Below, piece after piece: positions 52,894 to 54,715 of a stretch of DNA of 64,000 nt. Within the stretch, counting starts at the first letter, position 1; each line of letters opens with the position of its first letter. The notes under the pieces were generated by a model that ran no database searches, had not been told where the DNA came from, and worked only from the letters and a program-made list of their open reading frames with translations. The position numbers and the translations under genes were made by a program. The stretch is from Maricaulis salignorans (GTDB lineage Bacteria; Pseudomonadota; Alphaproteobacteria; Caulobacterales; Maricaulaceae). Location of the stretch: NCBI RefSeq assembly GCF_900103475.1, contig NZ_FNHG01000007.1:1-64000 (forward strand), given 5' to 3'.

Positions 52894-54018
<1,125 letters not shown>

Positions 54019-54035
54019 TCAGGCCTAACGGGTCG

Positions 54036-54092
54036 TTAAGCACGAATCAAGTTATCCACATGGAGTCCGGATTTGCCCGTCGAGTCCGATTC
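54036..54092 (-). promoter_or_regulatory. ccrM control region: four GANTC sites and a CtrA-like site
   Basis: GANTC sites are at 54044-54048, 54063-54067, 54082-54086 and 54088-54092. Reading leftward, TTGA-N7-TTAA (54050 down to 54036) resembles the CtrA box TTAA-N7-TTAA with one mismatch, and overlaps the first GANTC site. In Caulobacter, ccrM transcription depends on CtrA and on methylation of leader GANTC sites. The same logic is inferred here. Confidence 0.6.
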
Positions 54093-54097
54093 TGCGT

Positions 54098-54715
54098 CTA
54101 GCGGTTTTCGAGGGCGGCGCGGACCGGCGCATAGCTGAAACGGTGAATCGGGCAAGGGCCGAGCGCGATCAGGGCGTTGCGGTGAGTGGCGCTGGGATAG
54201 CCCTTGTGCCCTTCAAATCCGTAGCCGGGAAAACGCAGCGCCGCGCGCAGCATCAAATCGTCGCGGACCGTCTTGGCAATGATCGAGGCGGCGCCAATTG
54301 CCGCTTCCGAAGCATCGCCCTTGATGATCGCCTCGGCGCTGCAGGGCAGGCCATGCGGCACACGATTGCCGTCGATCAGGATGTGGCCAGGCGTGAAGGG
54401 CAGATTGCGCACGGCCCGCGCCATGGCGGTCATGGTCGCCTGAAGAATGTTGAGCCGGTCAATTTCCTCCGGCTCGGCAATGCCGACCCCGACCCAGGCG
54501 AATTGCCGGATCTGCAGCGCCAGGCCGGCGCGTCGCTTTTCGGAGATCACTTTGGAATCGCCGAGGCCGGCGATCGGGCGGGCCGGGTCAAGGATCACGG
54601 CCGCGGCCACAACCGGGCCGGCAAGCGGGCCACGCCCGGCTTCATCGACGCCGGCAATAAGGATGCGCGGGGCAGGACGGGTAAAAAGGTCGGACATGGC
54701 AGCAGCCATAGCCAT
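54098..54715 (-). CDS. rnhB: ribonuclease HII
   Basis: About 205 residues (start uncertain). It removes ribonucleotides from DNA-RNA hybrids. Catalytic residues appear in [16 protein letters not shown], in [11 protein letters not shown] and in [17 protein letters not shown]. Candidate starts are a TTG (54733) and ATGs at 54715, 54709 and 54697; 54715 follows a CAGGCAGG stretch. It precedes ccrM with a control region between. Confidence 0.95.

Follow-up and report, generated by a model that had tools for sequence, protein, structure and literature searches.

The region considered here is the promoter of ccrM, the gene for the cell-cycle DNA-marking enzyme, in the marine stalked bacterium Maricaulis. 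It lies within a stretch of 64,000 nucleotides, analysed at its full length and referred to below as the window. The ccrM gene (52894 to 53973, minus strand, with its ATG at 53973) encodes a GANTC adenine methyltransferase of 359 amino acids. Its product matches NCBIfam model NF050803 with an E value of 2e-187 and 622 bits, a score below the 830-bit cut-off of that Caulobacter model, and ccrM was the best match in 59 of the 61 genomes searched. On the same strand, the gene is preceded by rnhB (54098 to 54697, minus strand), which encodes ribonuclease HII, and the two are separated by a gap of 124 bases (53974 to 54097). Read along the minus strand from rnhB to ccrM, this gap contains GAATC, GACTC, GACTC, a DnaA box (TGTGGATAA), TTGATTC, a CtrA box (TTAACGACCCGTTAG), a GAGAAC element, GGAG and the ccrM ATG. 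The GGAG (53983 to 53986, minus strand), present in all 18 aligned genomes, is the likely ribosome-binding site of ccrM. GCTGAGAAC (54007 to 54015, minus strand), where relatives carry GNNGANAAAC-like letters, might serve as a -10 element, but this assignment is uncertain. Scanning the ccrM upstream region for sigma-70 promoters gave no match; a plain sigma-70 promoter or terminator was considered here and rejected, as none was found.

The most conspicuous feature of the gap is a cluster of four GANTC sites (54044 to 54048, 54063 to 54067, 54082 to 54086 and 54088 to 54092), which do fall within 49 bases, as had been noted when the region was first singled out. The background is lower than the one site per 300 bases assumed at the time: GANTC occurs once per 621 bases in the host's own genome (1877 sites in 1,164,931 bases), and the window holds 103 sites against 319 expected from dinucleotide shuffles, a threefold depletion. 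In the same 1.165 Mb, the ccrM promoter provides the only instance of four GANTC sites in 50 bases, where 0.11 would be expected on a Poisson basis; seven other clusters have three sites in 50 bases (4.9 expected), one of them in the ctrA promoter. This sample comprises 61 stretches covering about 37% of the genome, and it is not random, its last members having been picked for holding DnaA boxes; DnaA-box rates in it are therefore inflated, and for these boxes only the whole-genome count is used below. Elsewhere in the same genome, a separate stretch (L161, 18664 to 18720) has three GANTC sites within 50 bases and four within about 70.

The cluster is accompanied by two overlapping CtrA boxes. 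The original prediction had described one GANTC as overlapping a TTGA-N7-TTAA box, and this is the case: the box occupies 54036 to 54050 on the minus strand and the GANTC starts at 54044, reading TTGATTC on that strand. A conserved CtrA box does stand before ccrM, but the description was incomplete, in that the best-kept box is a different one, TTAA-N7-TTAG (CTAA-N7-TTAA on the plus strand), at 54025 to 54039 on the minus strand. The TTGA-N7-TTAA box overlaps this core and shares its TTAA. All 18 Maricaulis genomes have the core in the form TTAACGNCCCGTTAG or TTAACCGCCCGTTAG, so that TTAACGACCCGTTAG, with two variable positions, is common to the genus. Its pairwise identity is 95.3%, compared with 60.2% at 129 fourfold-degenerate sites of ccrM, and column resampling (100,000 and 200,000 rounds) never produced this level or that of the DnaA box. 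Rarity is of no help here: these two are the only matches to TTAA-N7-TTAA with at most one mismatch in the window, but 1.55 would be expected by shuffling, and chance alone makes one-mismatch CtrA-like boxes frequent (40 per Mb). The CtrA call therefore rests on conservation. The TTGA half-site is kept in 15 of the 18 genomes (81% identity, P 0.02), including five of the seven that have no GANTC there, which argues for a constraint of its own. On these grounds, control of ccrM by CtrA appears well supported.

Absent from the earlier reading of the cluster was a DnaA box, which lies between two of the GANTC sites (54052 to 54060, plus strand) and is an exact copy of TTATCCACA, which we take, together with TTWTNCACA, as the DnaA consensus. 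The form TGTGGA[AT]AA is found in 17 of the 18 genomes and is exact in 14; pairwise identity is 94.7%, again to be compared with the 60.2% of silent ccrM sites, and the spacing to the CtrA core is fixed at 21 bases in 17 of 18. In nine genomes, a second, inverted box-like sequence is found 21 bases further upstream. Protein coding was considered as a cause of this conservation, the rnhB stop codon falling within the box in 13 of the 18 genomes. It was rejected on two grounds. In those 13 genomes, the letters of the box correspond to the rare codons TGT and GGA (GGA accounts for 30 of 589 glycine codons in ccrM), and the box is kept where rnhB ends elsewhere. Five genomes are in the latter situation: three keep TGTGGAAAA, one (L018) has lost the box, and the host still has it exact, although its rnhB stops 37 bases short of it. 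Outside the genus, the family contributes 17 ccrM loci, none of which has an exact DnaA box or a TTWTNCACA sequence before the gene. The ccrM upstream regions of five Hellea-like genomes (L027, L036, L095, L127 and L135) have in common TGTGGATATTAACC, a one-mismatch DnaA box fused to a CtrA half-site.

We consider that the ccrM promoter is probably a composite switch, activated by CtrA, receiving an input from DnaA and flanked by methylation-sensitive sites, and that it is best read as a new version of the Caulobacter ccrM switch. Phosphorylated CtrA would bind TTAA-N7-TTAG, aided by the overlapping TTGA half-site, and turn ccrM on in late S phase. From its box ten bases upstream, the initiator DnaA would act, positively or negatively, on the same promoter. 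GANTC sites around both boxes would allow the promoter to sense passage of the replication fork, which leaves it hemimethylated; as CcrM builds up, full methylation would close the promoter again. In TTGATTC, the TTGA half-site ends on the very adenine that CcrM methylates and, for this reason, CtrA and CcrM would be expected to compete directly for this sequence. On this arrangement, ccrM would be a point of convergence for three cell-cycle signals, and a methylation feedback on the gene becomes plausible.

Binding, timing and the effect of methylation are inferred here to follow the same logic as in Caulobacter. There, ccrM transcription is described, in a passage of PMC2217572, as activated by CtrA and proceeding from hemimethylated DNA, and part of PMC3973325 calls methylation of ccrM's own promoter most probable. 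An excerpt of PMC5172544 concerns a Caulobacter synthetic promoter in which three GANTC sites were laid over two CtrA boxes; these sites were hypomethylated, from which the authors infer occlusion by CtrA. The likeness to Maricaulis is that a GANTC overlaps a CtrA box and that CtrA would shield it from CcrM; the difference is that the overlap described in that excerpt is artificial, whereas the present one is natural and located at CcrM's own gene. Control of ccrM by DnaA has been predicted before by Brilli et al. (2010; PMC2877005), who, in the part of that study bearing on this point, also had a DnaA motif before the gene, chiefly in cases that lack CtrA sites there. Maricaulis differs from this portion of their account in having the DnaA and CtrA boxes together, both conserved throughout the genus. 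In the open full-text literature (as distinct from subscription papers), we found no description of a DnaA box, a CtrA box and GANTC sites at Maricaulis ccrM.

For the GANTC flank, comparison with relatives gives a mixed picture. The sites lie at offsets -9, -28, -47 and -53 from the CtrA core. The expectation that they would be conserved in relatives holds for three positions, with a site at -51 or -53 in 16 of the 18 genomes (there mostly within the rnhB frame), at -28, two bases off the DnaA box, in 12 and at -9 in 11; it does not hold for the site at -47, which is private to the host (1 of 18), nor for two genomes that have no GANTC within 200 bp of ccrM. (A 19-bp insertion with two private sites in the host, as read from a gapped alignment, was rejected; anchoring on the CtrA core leaves one private site.) Counted per 65-bp stretch, two genomes have no site, four have one, one has two, ten have three and the host has four. 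One of the two genomes devoid of sites (L012) has two exact DnaA boxes nonetheless, and methylation sensitivity therefore cannot be essential in the genus. Compared with the joint retention of four random silent sites, retention gives P values of 0.03 at -28 and 0.06 at -9; column identity is indistinguishable from the silent level at -28 (P 0.43) and gives P 0.10 at -9. Individually, the sites at these two positions are thus at best weakly more constrained than silent sites.

Such turnover lends itself to a simpler explanation, in which CtrA and DnaA control the promoter and the GANTC sites are incidental products of AT-rich promoter letters and of the rnhB tail, with no role in ccrM expression. 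The loss of sites in several genomes and the silent-level identity of the -28 column would fit this view. It is at odds with the density of sites, which averages 2.2 sites in a 65-bp stretch across the genus when 0.1 would be expected from the genomic rate, and with the situation at other ccrM genes. Out of 139 ccrM upstream regions, 135 were used; two were too short (L105, L112), one was a duplicate (L110) and one was the same as another (L060, as L011). The groups were freed of sequences identical over 200 bp, though near relatives may recur between sets. These 135 regions average 2.5 GANTC sites per 200 bp, compared with 0.8 after shuffling; three or more sites in 50 bp are seen in 62 of them (0.9 expected) and four or more in nine (0.03 expected), while seven have none at all. 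Enrichment over composition-matched shuffles was found in all seven groups tested, and similarly dense clusters exist in other families (L058 and L138). Taken with the shuffles and the genome sample, this enrichment led us to reject a chance cluster, and we regard incidental GANTC sites at a CtrA- and DnaA-controlled promoter as unlikely.

Where the sites lie differs between lineages. In Maricaulis, 41 are upstream of the CtrA box and two downstream, both of the latter within the ccrM frame; in all 18 genomes, the interval from the CtrA core to the start codon is free of GANTC. The host's four sites are all upstream of the CtrA box or overlap it, so that the cluster is not the leader feature that it was originally taken for. 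Other arrangements are found elsewhere: in one family (f4), GANTC sites flank the CtrA box on both sides. Like Maricaulis, Caulobacter-titled loci have a near-identical CtrA box (TTAACGGCCCG) with several GANTC sites around it (L073, L075, L079 and L094). However, four of six have a GACTC-(C)AT-GATTC pair downstream of the box, near the start codon, which Maricaulis lacks; and none has a TTWTNCACA sequence within 200 bp, where Maricaulis has its DnaA box upstream of the CtrA box. The claim that Maricaulis has more sites than Caulobacter is correct for density but not for number, since the four Caulobacter loci with the pair have four to five GANTC sites in 200 bp, more spread out. In Rhodobacterales-titled loci (L069 to L137), a GANTC cluster likewise precedes ccrM, and 32 of 44 show a triple of sites, constant in spacing, that surrounds a TTGAC -35-like element. 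Here, in apparent contrast to Maricaulis, the sites lie inside the likely core promoter, the last overlapping a likely -10, and a CtrA box is, by eye, mostly absent. Six of the 44 have an exact DnaA box, just downstream of the core promoter and directly after the triple. Since enrichment is general in the 135 promoters and placement is specific to the lineage, a cluster is kept while its place moves.

The Rhodobacterales arrangement is the one that would be wanted if GcrA bound methylated GANTC sites and recruited sigma-70 RNA polymerase, in which case methylation would activate ccrM rather than close it. The gcrA gene is present in 18 of 19 Maricaulis genomes, alongside ccrM, a point in favour of this view. 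Yet the Maricaulis sites stand upstream of the CtrA core, where, given the inferred start site, a contact between GcrA and sigma near -10/-35 would not be expected. We hold activation through GcrA to be quite improbable at this promoter.

Exact copies of TTATCCACA are rare in the host genome: five in 3,117,768 bases (3.12 Mb), compared with 17 copies of the sequence reversed as a control. One copy lies upstream of ccrM, one upstream of dnaB (by 102 bases) and one upstream of ctrA (by 345 bases); the other two are within predicted frames (L142, L144). The 19 Maricaulis genomes together contain 138 exact boxes, of which these three genes account for 42. The ccrM gene contributes 16, spread over 15 of the 18 genomes where ccrM was found; ctrA contributes eight, in eight of 19 genomes, and dnaB contributes 18, in 14 of the 18 testable genomes (a locus with dnaB at a contig end was left out of the count). 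The looser TTWTNCACA precedes ctrA in all 19 genomes (-345 to -352), ccrM in 17 of 18 and dnaB in 17 of the 18 that could be tested. By comparison, within 400 bases of gcrA the exact box is found in none of 18 genomes and TTWTNCACA in five. According to PMC4287350, gcrA is a DnaA target in Caulobacter, and for Maricaulis maris Brilli et al. (PMC2877005) note a gcrA gene preceded by a DnaA motif. In 19 ORF-annotated loci with exact boxes other than those at ccrM, ctrA and dnaB, most boxes are in or near unrelated frames. Some of these (L180 and L181, also L166 and L167) have an exact box around position 1500, about 150 to 160 bases before one recurring frame whose N-terminus we take to be PodJ-like; an NCBIfam search of this frame gave no match. 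That the box before ccrM is a titration or replication-related site, placed there by chance and devoid of a transcriptional role, is very unlikely: single strong DnaA boxes can titrate DnaA, but this one recurs before ccrM, ctrA and dnaB in the genus and keeps its fixed spacing to the CtrA core.

A second composite resembling that of ccrM is found at ctrA. In 11 of the 19 Maricaulis genomes (L196, L197, L199, L200, L202 and L206 to L211), four GANTC sites in about 45 bases, at approximately -411 to -368, adjoin the DnaA box at about -349; the host has only one GANTC beside its ctrA box. To our knowledge, only in Caulobacter has the wiring between the start of replication, CtrA and CcrM been worked out in detail. 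It is tempting to speculate that the Maricaulis circuit is rewired, with DnaA acting directly on ctrA, ccrM and dnaB instead of first on gcrA as in Caulobacter, with fork passage gating DnaA and CtrA where DnaA boxes stand beside GANTC clusters at ctrA and ccrM, and with a DnaA-to-ccrM link that some Rhodobacterales acquired independently. Judged from the motifs, this wider view is tentative, and we would put it below the composite promoter itself. Even so, the DnaA box found before ccrM, ctrA and dnaB, and mostly not at gcrA, is rare, perfect and conserved, and it amounts to a testable prediction that a related stalked bacterium would be wired differently. The lineage-wise movement of GANTC sites around ccrM shows, in turn, that such a cluster can persist while its location changes.
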